In this document: positions 7,903 through 16,275 of the stretch, piece after piece
How positions within the stretch are numbered: the first letter of the stretch is position 1
How the letters are laid out: each line of letters starts with the position of its first letter
Translations under genes and position numbers: made by a program
Assembly: GCA_009885185.1 (NCBI GenBank)
Contig: VFLF01000797.1
Coordinates: forward strand, 1 to 17,810
Direction of reading: 5' to 3'
Origin: Nitrosomonadales bacterium
GTDB lineage: Bacteria; Pseudomonadota; Gammaproteobacteria; Burkholderiales; SG8-41
DNA: 17,810 nucleotides
The notes under the pieces: generated by a model
What the model saw: the letters and a program-made list of their open reading frames with translations, nothing else
What the model was told of the DNA's origin: nothing
Database searches by the model: none

Positions 7903-7919
7903 ATGGTACGTAAGTTGCT
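7903..7919 (+). promoter_or_regulatory. Sigma54 (-24/-12) promoter of the atzF unit
   Basis: TGGTACG-TAAG-TTGCT matches the sigma54 consensus TGGCACG-N4-TTGCW with one mismatch. The invariant GG (7905-7906) and GC (7917-7918) are exactly 10 bases apart. The predicted start near 7930 leaves a leader of about 32 bases before the atzF ATG. No full NtrC dyad is obvious upstream. A direct repeat of GGTTGC (7838 and 7849, 11 bp apart) lies at enhancer distance but is a poor match. Confidence 0.65.
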
Positions 7920-7961: not shown

Positions 7962-9776
7962 ATGTTGCATTACAGCCTTGATCTGACCTTTCTCAGCGCC
8001 GCTTATGCGGGCGGTACGCTGACCCCTGGCGCATTGGTGCGCGATATTTATGCCGCGATGCCCGCGTTGGCGGGCAATCCGGTGTGGATTCATTTATTGC
8101 CGCAGGAGGCCGCCGCCCAACAAGCGCGCGAGCTGGAGGGGCGCCGCGCCGCCGGCGCGTCGCTGCCGCTCTACGGCATTCCGTTTGCGGTGAAAGACAA
8201 TATCGATGTCGCGGGTTGTCCTACCACGGCGGCGTGCCCTGCGTTCGCCTACACACCGCACGAGACCGCCTACGCCGTGCAACGCCTGCTGGACGCGGGC
8301 GCGCTGCTCATCGGCAAGACCAATCTCGATCAGTTCGCCACCGGGCTGGTGGGCACGCGCTCGCCCTATGGTGCGTGCAGCAATGCCTTCAACGCGGATT
8401 ACATCTCCGGCGGTTCAAGTTCAGGTTCGTCGGTGGCCGTGGCGGCGGGGCTGGTGAGCTTTGCGCTGGGCACGGACACCGCCGGATCAGGGCGCGTGCC
8501 CGCCGGCTTCAACAACATTGTCGGCCTCAAACCCACGCCCGGCGTGGTGAGCACGCGCGGGGTGGTGCCAGCGTGCCGCTCGCTGGATTGCGTGTCGGTG
8601 TTTGCGTTGACCTGCGAGGATGCGACCCGTGTGTTTGATGTGATGCGCGGGTTTGATGCCGGCGATATTTACGCCCGTACCGATTCTAACGGCGCGCCCG
8701 TATTTTCCACGACTGCTTTTCGTTGCGGCGTGCCGGCCCAATCGCAACTGGAATTTTTTGGCGACGGCATGGCGCGCGCGGCATTCGAGAAATCACTGGC
8801 GACGCTGCGCGACAACGGCGCGCAAATGGTGGAAATCGATTTTCAACCCTTCGCCGACGTGGCGCGGCTGCTGTACGACGGGCCGTGGGTGGCCGAACGT
8901 TACGCCGCGATCAAGGATTTTCTGTCGCAACAGCCGGATGAAATCCATCCGGTCACGCGCAAGGTGATCGAATCCGCGACAAACTGGAACGCCGTCGATA
9001 CGTTTGATGCGCTCTACCGCTTGCGTGAATTGAAACGCCGCTGTGATGCTGAATGGCAAAAAATGGATGTGCTTGTCGTGCCGACCAGCGGCACGATCTA
9101 CACCCATGCGCAAATCGCCGAAGCGCCCGTCGAGCGCAACACCCATCTCGGCTACTACACCAATTTCGTCAATCTGCTCGACCTGTGCGCGCTGGCCGTG
9201 CCGGGCACGTTCCGCGCCGACGGCTTGCCCGCCGGGGTGACGCTGATTGGTCAGACGCATGCCGATCATCAACTGGGGGCCATCGGCGATCGCTTTCATT
9301 GCGCGAGCGGCGTGCGCATGGGCGCGACGCGCTTTGAATTGCCGCCATCCGCGCCGCGGCAGGAAACGCCGGCAAAAAACGAAGTCGTGATTGCCGTGGT
9401 GGGCGCGCACCTGTCGGGCCTGCCGCTGAATCATCAACTCACCACGCGCGGCGCGCGCCTGCTGCAAGCCGCGCACACTGCGCCGTGCTATCGGCTGTAT
9501 GCGCTGCCGGGCACGGTGCCGCCAAAGCCGGGGCTGGTGCGCGTGGCGGAAGACGGTGTTGCCGTTGCGGTAGAACTATGGGCGCTGACGCCCGCTGCGT
9601 TTGGCGCGTTCGTGGCCGAGGTGCCGCCGCCGCTGTCCATCGGCACGTTGACACTGGCCGATGGGTGCACGGTGAAGGGGTTTTTGTGTGAGTCCTGTGC
9701 ATTGCCGGGCGCGCGGGATATTTCGTCATTCGGCGGCTGGCGCGCGTATCTCGCGGCGCAGGCGTTGCAAGCGTGA
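7962..9776 (+). CDS. atzF: Allophanate hydrolase
   Basis: A 604-residue two-domain enzyme that hydrolyses allophanate to ammonia and CO2, the last step of cyanuric acid and biuret catabolism. The N-terminal amidase domain has Lys78 (VPFAVKDNIDVAG), cis-Ser152 in SGGSSSGS and nucleophile Ser176 in GTDTAGSGRVPA. The stretch VAGCPTTAACPAFAY is typical of allophanate hydrolases. The C-terminal domain (about 465-604) ends with GFLCESCALPGARDISSFGGW, the conserved end of the AtzF / urea amidolyase hydrolase part. Length is as expected for AtzF. No urea carboxylase is adjacent, which argues against a urea amidolyase role. The Shine-Dalgarno sequence is weak. The stop overlaps the next gene by 4 bases. 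A sigma54 promoter precedes it. Confidence 0.93.
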   Translation: MLHYSLDLTFLSAAYAGGTLTPGALVRDIYAAMPALAGNPVWIHLLPQEAAAQQARELEGRRAAGASLPLYGIPFAVKDNIDVAGCPTTAACPAFAYTPHETAYAVQRLLDAGALLIGKTNLDQFATGLVGTRSPYGACSNAFNADYISGGSSSGSSVAVAAGLVSFALGTDTAGSGRVPAGFNNIVGLKPTPGVVSTRGVVPACRSLDCVSVFALTCEDATRVFDVMRGFDAGDIYARTDSNGAPVFSTTAFRCGVPAQSQLEFFGDGMARAAFEKSLATLRDNGAQMVEIDFQPFADVARLLYDGPWVAERYAAIKDFLSQQPDEIHPVTRKVIESATNWNAVDTFDALYRLRELKRRCDAEWQKMDVLVVPTSGTIYTHAQIAEAPVERNTHLGYYTNFVNLLDLCALAVPGTFRADGLPAGVTLIGQTHADHQLGAIGDRFHCASGVRMGATRFELPPSAPRQETPAKNEVVIAVVGAHLSGLPLNHQLTTRGARLLQAAHTAPCYRLYALPGTVPPKPGLVRVAEDGVAVAVELWALTPAAFGAFVAEVPPPLSIGTLTLADGCTVKGFLCESCALPGARDISSFGGWRAYLAAQALQA

Positions 9777-10606
9777 ACCTGTATCGCGGTATGGATCGCG
9801 CGGCGCTGGATGCCGCGTACGACAATACGGCGGCGGTCACGAACAGCGCCGCGTTGCTGGCGGATTTTGATGCGCGCAGCGCGCGCCTGCGCGAGGCCAT
9901 GCCGCAACATCTCGGTTTGCGCTATGGGCCGGCCGAGCGCAACCGCATCGATTATTTCGCCGCGCCGTCCACTGGCGAGCCGGCGCCGGTGCTGGTTTTC
10001 ATCCATGGCGGCTATTGGCAGATGCGCGCCAAGGAGACTTTCAGTTTCCTCGCGGCGGGCCCGCTCGCGCACGGCATCCACGTCGCGCTGCCGGGCTACA
10101 CGCTGGCGCCCGCGATCACTCTCGACGGCATCGTCGATGAGGTGCGCGCGGCGGTACGCTGGATCGCGCAACACGCGGCGGAGTTTGGCGGTGACCCTGC
10201 GCGCATTATCGTCTCCGGCTGGTCGGCGGGCGGGCATCTAGCCGCGATGATGATGGACGAGCCCGAGGTTAAAGCAGGCCTTGCGATCAGCGGTATTTTT
10301 GATCTGGAACCGATACGCCTGAATTACCTCAACACCCGGCTGAAGCTGGACGCGGATGCGGCGCGGCGCTTGAGCCCGGTGTTGCATCTGCCCTCGCGGC
10401 CCGCGCCGCTGCTGCTGGCGTGCGGCACCGGCGAACTACCGGAGTTGCAGCGGCAATCGGCAGGCTATGCGACGGCACGTGAGCAAGCCGGATTGCCGGG
10501 GCGGCTCACGGGTCTGCGCGGGCACAATCACTTCACGATACTTGAAGAGCTCGCTCGGCCCGATGGCGCGCTGACCATGATGGTGCGCGACATCGCCGCT
10601 GCGTAG
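9773..10606 (+). CDS. Alpha/beta hydrolase with HGGYW motif, arylformamidase-like
   Basis: A 277-residue alpha/beta hydrolase resembling the arylformamidase (kynurenine formamidase)-like branch, which cleaves formyl-amide or related bonds. It shows the oxyanion motif HGGYW (78-82), a nucleophile elbow GWSAGG with Ser151, candidate acids Glu221/Glu224 and a C-terminal His253 in HNHFTIL. The GTG start overlaps the atzF stop as GTGA and includes the N-terminal YRGMDRAALDAAY, which looks like family sequence; the later ATG at 9791 would remove part of it. The overlap implies translational coupling with atzF, so a role near allophanate is possible. I know of no characterised step in the pathway for it. 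It could process an upstream or side substrate. Confidence 0.85.
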   Translation: MNLYRGMDRAALDAAYDNTAAVTNSAALLADFDARSARLREAMPQHLGLRYGPAERNRIDYFAAPSTGEPAPVLVFIHGGYWQMRAKETFSFLAAGPLAHGIHVALPGYTLAPAITLDGIVDEVRAAVRWIAQHAAEFGGDPARIIVSGWSAGGHLAAMMMDEPEVKAGLAISGIFDLEPIRLNYLNTRLKLDADAARRLSPVLHLPSRPAPLLLACGTGELPELQRQSAGYATAREQAGLPGRLTGLRGHNHFTILEELARPDGALTMMVRDIAAA

Positions 10607-10615
10607 CCTTGAGTC

Positions 10616-10630
10616 GCGCTCATTTGGTGC
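10616..10630. promoter_or_regulatory. NtrC-like enhancer site 1
   Basis: GCGCT-CATTT-GGTGC matches the NtrC dyad GCACY-N5-GGTGC at 9 of 10 defined positions. Its centre is about 120 bp upstream of the predicted sigma54 transcription start and 31 bp (three helical turns) from site 2. The paired arrangement resembles the strong NtrC sites upstream of E. coli glnA. Confidence 0.55.
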
Positions 10631-10646
10631 GCGGTGGAAATAGATC

Positions 10647-10661
10647 GCTCCAGTGTGGTGC
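10647..10661. promoter_or_regulatory. NtrC-like enhancer site 2
   Basis: GCTCC-AGTGT-GGTGC matches the NtrC dyad GCACY-N5-GGTGC at 9 of 10 defined positions. Its centre is about 89 bp upstream of the predicted transcription start. With site 1 it shares the 10-base direct repeat TGGTGCGCGG (10625 and 10656). Confidence 0.6.
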
Positions 10662-10689
10662 GCGGATACAATCGAGAGGTAATGTAACT

Positions 10690-10707
10690 ATTTGTTTTTA
10701 AACAATA
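10690..10707. promoter_or_regulatory. TTGTTT-TT-AAACAA palindrome, copy 2
   Basis: Exact repeat of the 18-mer at 2030-2047, with the perfect dyad at 10692-10697 and 10700-10705. It lies between the NtrC-like sites and the -24/-12 promoter, where DNA bending is usually needed. Overlapping it, 10703-10715 matches the reverse-strand IHF consensus with one mismatch. It could be an operator, a bending site or both. Confidence 0.45.
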
Positions 10708-10715
10708 ATTTGTTA

Positions 10716-10732
10716 TTGGCATGATGGTTGCT
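10716..10732 (+). promoter_or_regulatory. Sigma54 (-24/-12) promoter of the ABC-atzDGE operon
   Basis: TTGGCATG-ATGG-TTGCT fits the YTGGCACG-N4-TTGCW consensus with one mismatch. GG (10718-10719) and GC (10730-10731) are separated by exactly 10 bases, as the sigma54 holoenzyme requires. The predicted start is near 10743, giving a leader of about 55 bases. Two NtrC-like sites lie upstream at the right distance. Confidence 0.75.
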
Positions 10733-10786
10733 GAGAGTAAAGGCGAAGCGCGAAGCAGGAGCGTCCGCCTGCCCGGCGCATTAACC

Positions 10787-10791
10787 AGGAG
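10787..10791 (+). promoter_or_regulatory. Strong ribosome binding site
   Basis: AGGAG with 6 bases before the ATG at 10798 fixes the start of the substrate-binding protein. It is among the clearest Shine-Dalgarno sequences in the window. Confidence 0.75.
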
Positions 10792-10797
10792 ATCAAC

Positions 10798-11772
10798 ATG
10801 CCAACGACACGATTAATACGCAGACAGTTTATTGCCGCCGCGCTTACCCTGCTGGCGCCGCTGGCGTTGCCCGCGTTACATAGCGCTCATGCGCAGGAGA
10901 AGGTCATCAAGGTCGGCGCGCTGAAACTGATTCATTCGATCACGCCGCACTTCTATCAGCAGTTCGCGCCGCCCGGTTACAAGATTGAAGTCATTCCTTT
11001 CGAGAGCCCGACGGATAGCAAGAACGCGGTGGTCACCGGCTCGGTGGATTTTGCCACCTTCGGCATTGCGGCTGCGATGCTGGGTGCGGCGGCCGGCGAG
11101 CCGATAGTGATCTTCGCGCCGCAATGCAACGGCGGCATGGCGGTGGTCGCCGGCGTGAAAACGGATATCAAATCGATCAAGGATTTGAAAGGCAAGAAAG
11201 TAGCGATCTGGCCCGGCTCCACGCAGGAGGTTGTGATTCTGGAGCGCCTGAAAGCCGAAGGCATGACGATCAAGGATATTCAGTCCATCCGCTTGCCGTT
11301 TTCCGACATGGCGCCCGCGCTGGCCCGCGGCGACATCGATGCCTACGTGGGCGCCGAGCCTGGCCCCGGCATCAGTCTTGCCAATGGCGATGGCCGGATT
11401 GTCGAATACCCGTACAGCACGCCCATTGGCTCGCTCAATATGATTTGGGCGACACGCCAGGAGATGGTCGACAAGAACCCCGATCTGGTGAGAATGATGA
11501 TGGATATGCATCGCAAGGCGACCGAATTCGCCTTGGGCAATCGCGCGGAAATGGTCAAGATGACCATGCAGAAGCTCGGCCAGCAGCAAAAATCGATTGA
11601 ACTGGCGGCGCCCAACGTACATCTGACGTGGAAGATCGACGATGAATTCATGAAACGGGCCAGGGCCTATGGCGCGCTGATGCTGGAGAAAAAGCAGATT
11701 CGGGAGCTGCCTAACTTTGATCGCTTCATCACTACCCGATTCATGCCGGCGGATCCGCCCGCCAAGAAGTAA
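10798..11772 (+). CDS. ABC transporter periplasmic substrate-binding protein (nitrate/sulfonate/taurine type)
   Basis: A 324-residue NMT1/SsuA-like solute-binding protein. Residues 1-32 form a signal peptide with a twin-arginine-like RRQFIA start, a hydrophobic core and an AHA cleavage site before QEKVIKVG, so it is exported to the periplasm. The mature part has the family features: the KNAVVTGSVDFATFG segment, DLKGKKVAIWPGS near the middle and ARGDIDAYVGAEPG. In this class the protein captures a small anion or heterocycle and delivers it to the permease-ATPase pair that follows. It is the first gene of the operon that ends with atzD, atzG and atzE, so I infer that it binds cyanuric acid or a related s-triazine or biuret compound. 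Sequence alone does not show the ligand. Confidence 0.88.
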   Translation: MPTTRLIRRQFIAAALTLLAPLALPALHSAHAQEKVIKVGALKLIHSITPHFYQQFAPPGYKIEVIPFESPTDSKNAVVTGSVDFATFGIAAAMLGAAAGEPIVIFAPQCNGGMAVVAGVKTDIKSIKDLKGKKVAIWPGSTQEVVILERLKAEGMTIKDIQSIRLPFSDMAPALARGDIDAYVGAEPGPGISLANGDGRIVEYPYSTPIGSLNMIWATRQEMVDKNPDLVRMMMDMHRKATEFALGNRAEMVKMTMQKLGQQQKSIELAAPNVHLTWKIDDEFMKRARAYGALMLEKKQIRELPNFDRFITTRFMPADPPAKK

Positions 11773-11792: not shown

Positions 11793-12710
11793 ATGTCCGC
11801 GCTTCCCTCCGAGATACCCGTGGCGACAGAGACGTCCGCCGGGTTGGGCACGCCCGCGTCGGCTGTAGATACGACCGCCACGGCTGTAGGCACAACCGCC
11901 CTGGCTGTTGCGCGCAAGCCGTGGCTGTCGGAGCGCGTGCAGGGTGTTCTGCTGGCAGTGGCGTTTCCGCTGCTGCTGTTGTTTCTGTGGCATCAACTGG
12001 TGGTGATGACCGGCACCCGGCTGATACCCAAGCCGTCGCAGGTCGGCACCATGATGTGGGATTTCACCTTCGGCGGCATCCACAACGACGCCTTCAGTGG
12101 CACCATACTCACGCATCTTTTTGCCTCGATGCAGCGCGTCTATGGCGGATTCGCGCTGGCGATCGTGATCGGCATTCCGCTGGGGTTGCTGATCGGCAAG
12201 GTCAAACTCATCCGGCAGATGCTGGACCCCACGCTTTCGATGTTGCGGCCTATTCCGGTCACGGCGTGGCTGCCGCTGTCGATGATTTTCTTCGGACTGG
12301 GGCCGCGCTCGGCGATATTTCTGGTGTTTCTCGGTGCGTTTTATCCGGTACTGCTGAATACCATTTTCGGCGTACGCTCGGTTGACCCGCGCTTGTTCGA
12401 GGCGGCGTCGATGCTGGGCTGCGACGGCTCGCGTATGTTTCGTCAGGTGGTGCTGCCGGCGGCGATGCCCAGCATCTTCAATGGCCTGCGTCTGGCACAC
12501 GGCTTTGCCTGGATACTGATCGTGGTGGGCGAAATGACCGGCGTGCCCACCGGCCTGGGAGCGGTCATCATGGACGGGCGCACTTTGTCGCGTACCGATC
12601 TGGTGATCACCGGGATGATTATCATCGGTCTCGCCGGCTTTTTAACCGACCGTATTATTGTCAGCATCAGCAACCGGGTGCTGCGCTGGAGTCCGCAACA
12701 TCATGCTTAG
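11793..12710 (+). CDS. ABC transporter permease (SsuC/TauC type)
   Basis: A 305-residue inner-membrane permease. After a hydrophilic N-terminal arm of about 50 residues there are about six hydrophobic segments, starting at VLLAVAFPLLLLFLW and ending near TGMIIIGLAGFLTDRIIV. The cytoplasmic EAA loop is clear: EAASMLGCDGSRMFRQVVLP, the coupling helix that docks with the ATPase. The N-terminal arm contains imperfect 7-residue repeats (SAVDTTA, TAVGTTA, LAVARKP) encoded by a tandem DNA repeat. The ATG is 20 bases after the binding-protein stop. The arm is longer than usual for this family, so a later start is possible, although no clearly better one is visible. Confidence 0.88.
   Translation: MSALPSEIPVATETSAGLGTPASAVDTTATAVGTTALAVARKPWLSERVQGVLLAVAFPLLLLFLWHQLVVMTGTRLIPKPSQVGTMMWDFTFGGIHNDAFSGTILTHLFASMQRVYGGFALAIVIGIPLGLLIGKVKLIRQMLDPTLSMLRPIPVTAWLPLSMIFFGLGPRSAIFLVFLGAFYPVLLNTIFGVRSVDPRLFEAASMLGCDGSRMFRQVVLPAAMPSIFNGLRLAHGFAWILIVVGEMTGVPTGLGAVIMDGRTLSRTDLVITGMIIIGLAGFLTDRIIVSISNRVLRWSPQHHA
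11860..11910 (+). repeat. 21-bp imperfect tandem repeat in the permease N-terminus
   Basis: Unit 1 (11860-11880) and unit 2 (11881-11901) agree at 17 of 21 positions, and a partial third unit starts at 11902 with TGGCTGTTG. The repeat is in frame and encodes the Ala/Thr-rich heptads of the cytoplasmic arm. It probably arose by slippage; length variation would be tolerated. Confidence 0.6.
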
Positions 12711-13527
12711 CGAACAACCGTTGGTGCCGGCAAAACCTCGCCGCCAGTTTCTGACCATCAACGACGTCACCAAGACGTTTCAGATCGGCGTCGACGCGGT
12801 GCAGGCGCTGCGTGGCGTGAATCTGCGTATCGACAAGGGCGAATTTGTTTGTCTGATCGGCGCATCCGGCTGCGGTAAATCCACCCTGCTCAGAATCATT
12901 GCCGGATTTGAACAGCCGACGTCGGGCGTGATCAGTCTTTACGAGAACGTGATTACCGGCCCCGGCAGCGATCGCGGCATGGTGTTTCAGGACTATGCGC
13001 TGTTCCCGTGGATGACGGTGCGCGAGAACATCAGTTTTGGCCCGCGTCAGAAAGGGCGGGCCAAAAAATACATCGACGAAATCTCCAGTGAGTATCTGCA
13101 TATGGTGGGGTTGGAGAAATTCGCCGACCGCTTTCCGCATCAACTCTCCGGCGGCATGAAGCAGCGCGTGGCCATCGCCCGCGTGCTGGCCAATGAGTGC
13201 GAAGTGTTGCTGATGGATGAGCCTTTCGGCGCGCTGGATGCCCTGACGCGCGAAAGCCTGCAACAGGAGTTGCTGGAAATCTGGGCGCGCACCAAAGTGA
13301 CGGTAATTTTTGTCACGCATTCCGTGGAAGAGGCCGTGTTGCTGTCCGACCGCGTGGTGGTGATGACGGCGGGGCCAGGACGTATCGAGGCCGACGTGGC
13401 GATTGAACTGGCGCGCCCACGCGAAGTGTCGGCGATTGATTTTAATCAGGTGCGTCGTGACATCACGCAACGCCTGACCAGTCATGTTCGCGCCGGGGCG
13501 CCGCGTGAGTTGAAGGCAGTCGCCTGA
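12703..13527 (+). CDS. ABC transporter ATP-binding protein (SsuB/TauB type)
   Basis: A 274-residue nucleotide-binding subunit that powers the importer on the cytoplasmic face. Walker A is GASGCGKST (53-61), the Q-loop glutamine is about 96 (VFQDYALFPW), the signature is LSGGMKQR (148-155), Walker B is EVLLMDEP (167-174) followed by the D-loop ALD, and the switch His is at 206 (VTHSVEEAV). All functional motifs are intact. I choose the ATG at 12703, overlapping the permease stop by 8 bases. The frame is open back to 12658, but those 15 codons lie wholly within the permease gene and look unlike the family N-terminus. The ring-opening amidohydrolase gene follows after 14 bases, so transport and catabolism share one transcript. 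Confidence 0.92.
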   Translation: MLSEQPLVPAKPRRQFLTINDVTKTFQIGVDAVQALRGVNLRIDKGEFVCLIGASGCGKSTLLRIIAGFEQPTSGVISLYENVITGPGSDRGMVFQDYALFPWMTVRENISFGPRQKGRAKKYIDEISSEYLHMVGLEKFADRFPHQLSGGMKQRVAIARVLANECEVLLMDEPFGALDALTRESLQQELLEIWARTKVTVIFVTHSVEEAVLLSDRVVVMTAGPGRIEADVAIELARPREVSAIDFNQVRRDITQRLTSHVRAGAPRELKAVA

Positions 13528-13541
13528 ACCTGCGCCGCGCC

Positions 13542-14660
13542 ATGGCCGTCGTACGTATGGTTGATGTTCACCGGATTCCCATGGCAGGGCCTGGGGACGT
13601 ATCGGGAATCGTGCGGCTGATCGATGACGGCGCGCTGGATCCGCGCGCTATCGTTGCGATCATGGGCAAGACCGAAGGCAACGGCTGCGTCAACGATTTC
13701 ACCCGCGAATACGCCACCGCAGCGCTGGCCGGCTGCCTCGCGCAGCGGCTCGCACTCACTACGGCAGAGGTCGAGCAGCGCATCGCGTTTGTGATGTCGG
13801 GCGGTACCGAGGGCGTGCTCTCGCCGCACATGACGGTGTTCACGCGCCGCGAGATCGACGCGCCGCCCGGCGCGCAAAAAAGACTGTCGATCGGCATCGC
13901 CCACACACGCGACTTTCTGCCGGAAGAACTGGGCCGCCGCGCGCAGATCGACGAAACCGCCAAAGCCGTGACGGTTGCCATGGCGGATGCGGGCATCACG
14001 CAGACAGCCGATGTTCACTTCGTGCAGATCAAATGCCCCTTGCTCACGGTGGAGCGCATGCGCGCCGCACACAGTCGCGGGCAAACTGTCGTCACCGAGG
14101 AGGCGTACGCCTCTATGGGTTACTCGCGCGGCGCATCGGCGCTGGGCGTGGCGGTGGCGTTGGGCGAATTGCGCGAGGCGCCGTCAGACGCATCGGTGCT
14201 GGCGGACTGGGACGCCTATTCCTCAGTGGCGTCCACCTCTGCCGGCATTGAGCTGATGTGCAACGTGGTGATCGTGATGGGCAATGCCGCGTATTGCGCA
14301 AGCCCCTACACTATCGGACACGCGGTGATGAACGATGCCATCGATCTGCCTGCGGTGATCGGCGCCTTTCGGCATGCAGGGATCGATATATCCGCCGCGG
14401 GAAGTACTGCCGCGCGCAAGCGGCTGGTCAATGTGTTTGCCAAGGCCGAAGCCGCGCCGTCCGGCGAGGTGCGCGGCGCGCGCCACACCATGCTGGATGA
14501 TTCGGACATTAACTCGACGCGCCACGCGCGCGCCGCGGTCGGCGGCTTGATCGCGGGCGTAGCGGGCACGGGGCTGGTGTATGTGTCAGGCGGCGCGGAG
14601 CACCAGGGGCCGCCCGGCGGCGGGCCGATTGCGGTTATCGCGCGCGTGGATCCCACGTGA
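13542..14660 (+). CDS. atzD: Ring-opening amidohydrolase, probable cyanuric acid amidohydrolase
   Basis: A 372-residue protein of the cyanuric acid hydrolase / barbiturase family, which opens a six-membered N-heterocycle. The three-fold internal pattern of Ser-Lys dyads is complete: Lys43 (MGKTEGNGC) with Ser86 (SGGTEG), Lys164 (VQIKCP) with Ser233 (STSAGIEL), and Lys301 (FAKAE) with Ser349 (VSGGAEHQG). Three matching arginines that hold the ring are Arg55 (NDFTR), Arg196 (YSRGAS) and Arg327 (STRHARA). The C-terminal EHQGPPGGGP metal-loop motif is present. Cyanuric acid would give 1-carboxybiuret. Barbiturase is the alternative, but the following atzG-atzE pair and nearby atzF favour cyanuric acid. 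The stop overlaps atzG by 4 bases (GTGA). The second ATG at 13557 is a possible start. Confidence 0.88.
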   Translation: MAVVRMVDVHRIPMAGPGDVSGIVRLIDDGALDPRAIVAIMGKTEGNGCVNDFTREYATAALAGCLAQRLALTTAEVEQRIAFVMSGGTEGVLSPHMTVFTRREIDAPPGAQKRLSIGIAHTRDFLPEELGRRAQIDETAKAVTVAMADAGITQTADVHFVQIKCPLLTVERMRAAHSRGQTVVTEEAYASMGYSRGASALGVAVALGELREAPSDASVLADWDAYSSVASTSAGIELMCNVVIVMGNAAYCASPYTIGHAVMNDAIDLPAVIGAFRHAGIDISAAGSTAARKRLVNVFAKAEAAPSGEVRGARHTMLDDSDINSTRHARAAVGGLIAGVAGTGLVYVSGGAEHQGPPGGGPIAVIARVDPT

Positions 14661-14872
14661 GCAATGTGAGCAACATAAGCGCAACGACGCCAGCACCCTT
14701 CGACGCGGATCAATTCGTGCAGGCCGGGGCACCCGCGTTGGGAATTGCGCTGACGGTTGCGGAGCGTGGCGTGGTGAGCGTGCAAATGGCGCGCATCCAC
14801 GCGCTGGCGCAACTTGTGATGGATCACCCGCTGGCGATGGAAGACGAGCTCGCGCCGAGATTTGAGCCGTGA
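14657..14872 (+). CDS. atzG: AtzG, small partner subunit of AtzE
   Basis: A 71-residue acidic protein resembling AtzG, a GatC-like chaperone or subunit that forms a complex with AtzE and stabilises it. The middle and C-terminal pattern, with ALGIALTVAERGVVSVQMARI then LAQLVMDHPL and a terminal EPRF-like APRFEP tail, is characteristic: a helical hairpin followed by an extended tail that wraps the amidase, as GatC does on GatA. It starts at a GTG that overlaps the atzD stop and ends in a GTGA that overlaps the atzE start, so translation of the three genes is coupled and subunit stoichiometry is probably matched. Such short genes are easily missed by gene finders. Confidence 0.85.
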   Translation: MSNVSNISATTPAPFDADQFVQAGAPALGIALTVAERGVVSVQMARIHALAQLVMDHPLAMEDELAPRFEP

Positions 14873-16275
14873 GTGACGGCGCCACGGCGCTGGAGATCGC
14901 GGCGGATGTGCGCGGCCGCCGCCGGACCGCCACTGAAATCGCCCGCGACACGCTTGAGCGTATCGGCGCGCACGACACGCATTACAACGCATTCACCGAA
15001 GTGACCTCCGAGCGCGCCTTGCGCGACGCTGCCGCGGTCGATGCCGCCATTGCGGCAGGCCGTGATCCGGGGCCGCTGGCCGGCGTGCCGTTTGCGGTCA
15101 AGAATCTTTTTGACGTGCAGGACCATGTGACGCTGGCCGGATCACGCATCAACGCGACGAACAATGCAGCGGTGGCCGATGCCACTCTCGTGCGCCGCTT
15201 GTGCGATGCCGGCGCGGTACTGGTAGGCATGCTGAACATGGACGAATACGCGTATGGGTTCACCACGGAGAACTCGCACTATGGCGCGACGCGCAATCCG
15301 CATTCGCTGGACTGCATAGCCGGCGGATCATCCGGCGGCTGCGGTGCGGCGGTGGCGGGCGGCCTCGTGCCGCTGGCCCTGGGTTCGGACACCAATGGCT
15401 CGATACGGGTGCCCAGCGCGCTGTGCGGCATTTTTGGATTGAAGCCGACGTATGGCCGGCTCAGTCGCGCCGGTTCGTTTCCGTTTGTCGACAGCCTTGA
15501 TCACGTCGGGCCGTTCGCGCGCTCGGCGGGCGACCTTGCCGCTGCGTACGATGCGATGCAGGGCACGGACGAGCGCGACGCGGCATGCGCGGCACGCGCG
15601 GTCGCGCTGACGTCACCTCAACTCACGCTCGGCGCCGATGGCCTGCGCATCGGGCTGCTCAGCGGCTATTTCGAAGTCAACGTCGATGAGCAAACGTGGG
15701 AAGCCGTCAGTGCCGCCGCCCGCGCACTCGGCGTCACGCGTGAAATCGTGCTGCCGGAAGTCGAGCGCGCCCGCGCTGCCGCATTCATCATGACCGCGGC
15801 GGAAGGTGGCCAGCTTCATCTGCCTGATCTCAGGGATCGCCGCGCCGAATTCGACCCGTTGATACGCGATCGGCTGACGGCGGGCGCGATGATACCGGGC
15901 GCATGGTATTTGCAGGCGCAACGGTTGCGCCGCTGGTTCAGCCAGCGCGTGCGCGAAATATTTCAGGATGTTGACGTGTTGCTCGCGCCGGCCACGCCGC
16001 GCGCCGCGACCGTCATCGGACAGGAAACCATGTGCATACGCGGACGCGACATGCTGGTTCGACCCAACATGGGATTGCTGACACAGCCGCTGTCGTTTAT
16101 CGGATTACCCGTTGTCGCCGCGCCGCTCGCGACAGCGGCCCCGATGCCGCTGGGCATGCAGATCATTGCGGCGCCCTGGCGCGAGGATCTTTGCCTGCGC
16201 GTCGCCGCGGAACTGGAGCAACGCGGTTTGGCCTGCGCAAAAAGGCCAGTGATGGCGGGAACCGCCGCAGGATGA
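14869..16275 (+). CDS. atzE: AtzE-type amidohydrolase (1-carboxybiuret hydrolase)
   Basis: A 468-residue amidase-signature enzyme of the AtzE type, related to GatA. The triad is Lys78 (VPFAVKNLFD), cis-Ser154 in AGGSSGGCG and nucleophile Ser178 in GSDTNGSIRVPS; this spacing matches GatA closely. In Pseudomonas sp. ADP, AtzE with AtzG removes ammonia from 1-carboxybiuret to give 1,3-dicarboxyurea, which decarboxylates to allophanate. Gene order atzD-atzG-atzE here equals that of the known s-triazine operon. The GTG start overlaps the atzG stop by 4 bases. The last gene of the operon, it converges with the ADP-ribosylglycohydrolase gene across a 39-bp gap. Confidence 0.9.
   Translation: MSDGATALEIAADVRGRRRTATEIARDTLERIGAHDTHYNAFTEVTSERALRDAAAVDAAIAAGRDPGPLAGVPFAVKNLFDVQDHVTLAGSRINATNNAAVADATLVRRLCDAGAVLVGMLNMDEYAYGFTTENSHYGATRNPHSLDCIAGGSSGGCGAAVAGGLVPLALGSDTNGSIRVPSALCGIFGLKPTYGRLSRAGSFPFVDSLDHVGPFARSAGDLAAAYDAMQGTDERDAACAARAVALTSPQLTLGADGLRIGLLSGYFEVNVDEQTWEAVSAAARALGVTREIVLPEVERARAAAFIMTAAEGGQLHLPDLRDRRAEFDPLIRDRLTAGAMIPGAWYLQAQRLRRWFSQRVREIFQDVDVLLAPATPRAATVIGQETMCIRGRDMLVRPNMGLLTQPLSFIGLPVVAAPLATAAPMPLGMQIIAAPWREDLCLRVAAELEQRGLACAKRPVMAGTAAG

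Follow-up and report, generated by a model that had tools for sequence, protein, structure and literature searches.

Cyanuric acid is a common intermediate of s-triazine breakdown, and in the known model of cyanuric acid gene control a dedicated LysR sensor governs the genes; in pADP-1, atzDEF is driven by AtzR. Both pADP-1 operons are described as having sigma54 promoters (PMC6834077), and NtrC is described as activating the promoter of the regulator gene in the absence of a UAS (PMC5263251). A second described arrangement is that of the betaproteobacterial atzG-atzE-atzH clusters, in which an allophanate hydrolase gene lies upstream on the same strand and about half of the clusters carry an ABC transporter between this gene and atzG-atzE; sigma54/NtrC control is not discussed in the available text of that study (PMC6219798). 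Nitrogen control in betaproteobacteria has been described for B. cenocepacia H111, where NtrC governs glnA as well as nitrate and urea transporters, and where NtrC dependence is reported for a nitrate ABC transporter gene and also for a DUF404/DUF407 gene (PMC5491218). Our literature search, with most subscription journals outside its scope, returned no paper that describes atzDGE as a direct target of NtrC.

The window analysed here is the whole 17,810-nucleotide stretch of DNA. Its relevant features, in order along the stretch, are the following:

7904..7919, + strand: second sigma54 element, TGGTACGTAAGTTGCT (11/12), 58 bp before the atzF start codon
7962..9776, + strand: atzF, allophanate hydrolase (TIGR02713, 842 bits, cut-off 511)
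9773..10606, + strand: alpha/beta hydrolase gene, overlapping atzF by 4 nt
10616..10630, + strand: NtrC-type enhancer site 1, GCGCT-CATTT-GGTGC (9/10), centre 10623, about -120, from a consensus scan
10647..10661, + strand: NtrC-type enhancer site 2, GCTCC-AGTGT-GGTGC (9/10), centre 10654, about -89, from a consensus scan
10685..10697, - strand: tentative IHF-like site (8/9), centre about -52, inside an AT-rich spacer
10717..10732, + strand: sigma54 -24/-12 element, TGGCATGATGGTTGCT (12/12), with exact GG-N10-GC spacing
10743, + strand: predicted transcription start, inferred from sequence, with -12 at 10731
10787..10791, + strand: ribosome-binding site AGGAG, 6 nt 5′ of the ATG at 10798, read directly
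10798..11772, + strand: NMT1/SsuA/NrtA-type ABC transporter substrate-binding protein gene
11793..12710, + strand: ABC transporter permease gene
12703..13527, + strand: ABC transporter ATPase gene (the ATG at 12703 is used; the ORF list gives a TTG at 12658)
13542..14660, + strand: atzD, cyanuric acid amidohydrolase (NF052395, 548.7 bits, cut-off 360)
14657..14872, + strand: atzG-like small subunit gene (71 aa), named by its position, size and likeness in relatives
14869..16275, + strand: atzE, 1-carboxybiuret hydrolase family (NF006631, 714.8 bits, cut-off 461)

Like pADP-1, the window combines cyanuric acid genes with an ABC transporter and with predicted nitrogen control involving sigma54 (PMC6834077), and its AtzD, AtzE and AtzF are 62%, 54% and 51% identical to the pADP-1 proteins. 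The nearest solved structures to AtzD are cyanuric acid amidohydrolases, with barbiturase ranking further down. The two systems differ in their layout. In pADP-1 there is a divergent LysR gene and a BMP-type transporter, whereas the window has an NMT1/SsuA-type transporter, carries the transporter genes and atzDGE on one strand behind one promoter, and places atzF upstream; neither AtzR nor AtzH was found in it. The pADP-1 type of AtzH gave no match at E 1e-3 in the window or in its five nearest relative loci (L001–L005), and pADP-1 AtzG did not match the 71-aa atzG-like ORF at the same threshold. The upstream, same-strand allophanate hydrolase gene recalls the atzG-atzE-atzH clusters, from which the window differs in having atzD and in that atzH was not found (PMC6219798).

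The genes behind the promoter are tightly packed, with gaps of 20 nt between the binding-protein and permease genes and 14 nt between the ATPase gene and atzD, an 8-nt overlap of the permease and ATPase genes, and overlaps of 4 and 4 nt at the atzD/atzG-like and atzG-like/atzE junctions. No terminator above the scan threshold was found 3′ of atzE. The first gene beyond it in the ORF list to have a Pfam match encodes an ADP-ribosylglycohydrolase and lies on the opposite strand. The transporter genes and atzDGE are predicted to be co-transcribed from 10743. Near the start of the window, a minus-strand ORF at 382–1014 looks by eye like a piece of an MmgE/PrpD-type protein, and the ORF after the ATPase gene in locus L126 reads similarly by eye.

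The two NtrC-type sites begin 31 bp apart, which puts them on one face of the helix, and each match GCACY-N5-GGTGC at 9 of 10 positions, the mismatch of site 2 falling in the GCACC half. Sigma54 elements were scored against TGGCAYG-N4-TTGCW (maximum 12/12), and the only 12/12 match within the window is the element at 10717–10732. Our scans thus bear out both the paired sites and the exact -24/-12 spacing proposed in the first-pass annotation. The same annotation gave 89 and 120 bp as the distances from the sites to the -24/-12 element, which is wrong: both values run to the predicted start at 10743, and the site centres (10623 and 10654) lie 120 and 89 bp before that start but about 96 and 65 bp before the G of the -24 motif (10719). 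The geometry is that of E. coli glnAp2, where a pair of NtrC sites is likewise separated by three helical turns and lies about 100 bp before the -24/-12 element. A sigma70 promoter was also considered for the intergenic stretch and was ruled out, as no sigma70-like site between 10560 and 10830 reached the scan threshold.

An IHF site or a bend between enhancer and sigma54 promoter is common, although not required. The 45 bp of spacer around the IHF-like site are 78% AT, compared with 37% for the locus. With the consensus WATCAA-N4-TTR and a match defined as at least 8/9, an IHF-like site is present in 8 of the 18 loci described below (7 of them at -49 to -52) compared with 8% of shuffled spacers. 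IHF could possibly bend the DNA between enhancer and promoter, a tentative element and a weak step in the proposed mechanism.

To place the promoter among relatives, genome contigs were scanned for AtzD, and the best 80 of 454 confirmed loci were taken. Among these, L001–L005 are the nearest to the window, with AtzD identities of 75–88% and neighboring genes that match to the contig ends. L001–L003 come from metagenome assemblies titled Bordetella parapertussis with environmental-looking sample names, and the label looks wrong. In an intergenic alignment of the window with L002, L003 and L005, the sigma54 element is kept, as are the AT-rich spacer and the positions of both enhancers; L137, the contig of genome G001 and the nearest to the window, shows the same features. 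Across the best 80 of the 454 loci, many of which (L001 and L004 included) are short on the upstream side, a search of the 5 kb before atzD gave a sigma54 match of 11/12 or better in L002, L003, L005 and L066. A 9/10 NtrC-type site accompanies it in L002, L003 and L005 and not in L066, so that only these three loci qualify as having a like sigma54 and NtrC promoter upstream of atzD.

The substrate-binding protein offers a broader comparison. It is found in 4 of 399 genomes of the order and in 18 of 74 family genomes, from which we assembled 18 testable loci, namely 16 from the family, the window itself and G102, which is more distant. G417 and G463 were left out because their contigs end before the promoter. 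In all 18 loci the binding-protein gene is preceded, at 49–136 bp, by a sigma54 element scoring 11/12 or more. An NtrC-type pair, meaning two sites that together score 16 or more out of 20 and are spaced 30 or 31 bp apart, is present in 17 of them, compared with 0.9% of 20,000 positions drawn at random from these loci; the sole exception is G102 (outlying locus L127). One member of the pair is weak (7/10) in L003, L163 and L171, and several copies of perfect NtrC-type sites occur in L162, L168 and L170. The 18 loci (457,100 bases, both strands) contain 30 sigma54 matches of at least 11/12; this promoter accounts for 18 of them and the atzF promoter for 8. All seven such matches in the window and L001–L005 (162,344 bases, both strands counted) precede either the binding-protein gene or atzF.

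The atzF gene, the last of the pathway, and the alpha/beta hydrolase gene lie upstream of the transporter promoter on the same strand. The alpha/beta hydrolase gene accompanies the transporter in 17 of the 18 compared loci, whether or not atzD is there, and counts as its conserved partner. In 9 of the 12 loci with the atzF start in view (L117 being counted as atzF by eye), atzF is preceded at 53–78 bp by a sigma54 element scoring 11/12 or more; the element scores 10/12 in L126, and none at 11/12 is found in L167 and L168. In L169 and L170 a sigma54 element still precedes atzF although atzF is opposite in strand to the transporter. We looked for an NtrC-type pair before atzF and did not find one: no 9/10 site lies within 220 bp (165 bp viewable in L003), and 8/10 sites occur nearby in four loci. 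In having a sigma54 element without a UAS, the atzF promoter of the window resembles the promoter described for the pADP-1 regulator gene (PMC5263251).

The first-pass annotation held that control acts directly on the catabolic operon without AtzR, and the searches support this. The window contains no AtzR-type LysR gene, and the pADP-1 AtzR query gave no match at E 1e-3 in the window, L001–L005, L126, L127 or L135–L137; the same query matches L041 and L058 at 49–50%. No AtzR orthologue was found in six relative genomes (G001–G005 and G051), where the only LysR matches are at most 33% identical (best E 7.6e-24), compared with 49–50% in the two control genomes. L041 and L058, titled Herbaspirillum and Marinobacter, have an AtzR-type regulator near atzD and a different ABC transporter.

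What is new here is that 13 of the 18 family genomes encoding the binding protein (G051 and 12 others) have the transporter and its promoter but no detected atzD, and that the carriers fall in one clade, although the absence of atzD from these genomes, like that of AtzR from the relatives above, is provisional because they are largely metagenome assemblies of untold completeness. The five family genomes with atzD are G001, G002, G003, G005 and G457, the last of which has atzD on another contig than the binding-protein gene. G004 has atzD and no binding-protein match, and its atzD contig begins inside the ATPase gene. Eleven atzD-less loci have at least 3.4 kb of sequence beyond the ATPase gene; no atzD match occurs in any of them, and the genes found there differ from locus to locus. 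In a tree of the 18 binding proteins, rooted at the midpoint only and with a very long row for L171, a single group, supported at 96/96, is made up of G457 and the five atzD loci. The tree tool counted two changes in atzD because G457 was then labelled as lacking the gene.

Because 13 of the 18 genomes lack a detected atzD and the carriers form one clade, the switch and transporter probably predate atzDGE, and a single gain of atzDGE would be the simplest reading. The full scenario, to which we give about an even chance, is that in lake-type betaproteobacteria atzDGE was captured once behind a pre-existing transporter operon under NtrC and sigma54 that was already associated with allophanate hydrolase, so that inducer-free control replaced AtzR while atzF kept its UAS-less sigma54 promoter. 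Since atzF keeps this promoter of its own, the two halves of the pathway would, in the same scenario, answer NtrC in two ways.

The history could also have run the other way, with atzDGE ancestral to the transporter operon and lost from most relatives, the cyanuric acid genes and the promoter having evolved together. Gene losses are easy and the root of the tree is a midpoint only, but this history requires losses in all sampled lineages outside one clade, and the 11 loci reaching at least 3.4 kb past the ATPase gene yield no atzD match; we regard it as unlikely.

A different objection supposes that the sigma54 promoter drives the transporter only, atzDGE being expressed mainly from another promoter, for example one inside the ATPase gene. 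As most relatives have the promoter without atzD, it is not specific to cyanuric acid genes and did not evolve for atzDGE, which is in favor of this idea. The 14-nt gap between the ATPase gene and atzD and the overlaps of the downstream genes argue against it, as does the lack of any sigma54 match scoring 11/12 or more from 10733 to atzD (the sigma70 scan covered 10560–10830), and separate expression appears quite improbable. Cyanuric acid is at most a candidate substrate of the transporter, given that the transporter occurs without atzD and that a 56%-identical one adjoins atzF on an enterobacterial plasmid.

Enterobacterial plasmids carry a binding protein 56% identical to that of the window, and on one plasmid such a transporter adjoins atzF. 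In this Raoultella plasmid stretch (L140, 16408–21117), the NMT1/SsuA-type transporter and atzF have a GntR-type neighbor, and a ring-opening amidohydrolase gene lies about 15 kb away. The transporter and the allophanate hydrolase gene therefore travel together elsewhere too. The plasmids were rejected as a parallel case for the promoter, since no sigma54-like match of even 9/12 was found within 500 bp before the binding-protein gene on the one plasmid examined.

To identify the likely activator, we turned to the regulators of the relatives. NtrC and RpoN both score above their family cut-offs in five of five relatives, each with one RpoN, and the recognition helix segment GRNTLTRK is identical in these five and in E. 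coli. As a control, the E. coli glnA promoter has two 10/10 sites 32 bp apart before a sigma54 element scoring 10/12. The five relatives contain 40 exact sigma54 matches, compared with 8 for the reversed pattern, and loci were inspected for 30 of the 40. Among these, the NrtA-type genes L110 and L120 (relatives G004 and G002) have 8/10 NtrC-type sites 31 bp apart, and the circularly permuted ATP-grasp gene L093 has a pair spaced by 32 bp; at L097 and L119, NtrC-type sites are present but do not form a pair at about 31 bp. L114, which looks like a nitrate reductase promoter and has a 31-bp pair, was discarded as a control because the gene fragment begins mid-protein. The betaproteobacterial NtrC regulon described for B. 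cenocepacia H111 differs only in its target genes, with no cyanuric acid genes mentioned in the available text (PMC5491218).

The promoter is very probably a sigma54 promoter activated by NtrC, with NtrC binding and sigma54 dependence predicted from its motifs, and the earlier reading of a nitrogen-limitation promoter gains support from the arrangement in 17 of the 18 loci, the NtrC and RpoN of all five relatives, the glnA control and the identical NtrC helix. Another enhancer-binding protein might serve the promoter instead. The relatives encode several NtrC-like activators, as further full-length matches below the family cut-off indicate, and the sites of the window are imperfect, with one mismatch each. 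The paired site GCACY-N5-RGTGC is nevertheless of the NtrC type, with perfect copies in L162, L168 and L170 and the same site at E. coli glnA, and all five relatives share the same NtrC helix, which makes another activator highly improbable.

That the motifs arose by chance and the true promoter is of another type is barely credible and largely refuted already by conservation: single 9/10 NtrC-type sites do occur at chance level in this G+C-rich window (5 on both strands, 5.37 expected), and at least one appears in 280 of 20,000 dinucleotide shuffles of the 191-bp intergenic stretch, but a pair 29–33 bp apart appears in 0 of the 20,000, the elements are conserved in 17–18 of 18 loci, and no sigma70-like site rises above threshold, so that chance origin was ruled out by the shuffles together with the relatives.

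With activation of the sigma54 promoter by NtrC as the preferred reading, the following sequence of events may be proposed. When nitrogen is short, phosphorylated NtrC would bind the sites at about -120 and -89, form an active assembly and, reaching across the AT-rich spacer that IHF may bend, trigger opening by the sigma54 polymerase positioned at 10717–10732. Transcription would then run from about 10743 across the transporter genes and continue across atzD, atzG and atzE. In one clade, atzDGE would have come behind the ATPase gene and so under a general nitrogen signal, with no AtzR-type inducer sensor.

The promoter type is ordinary and the wiring is unusual. In these bacteria cyanuric acid chemistry seems to be wired straight to the general nitrogen-stress signal, which would predict expression of the genes without cyanuric acid and their repression by ammonium. 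Since some relatives carry atzDGE behind this promoter and others have the promoter without these genes, the way in which an existing regulon recruits a catabolic cassette becomes directly testable in this family.
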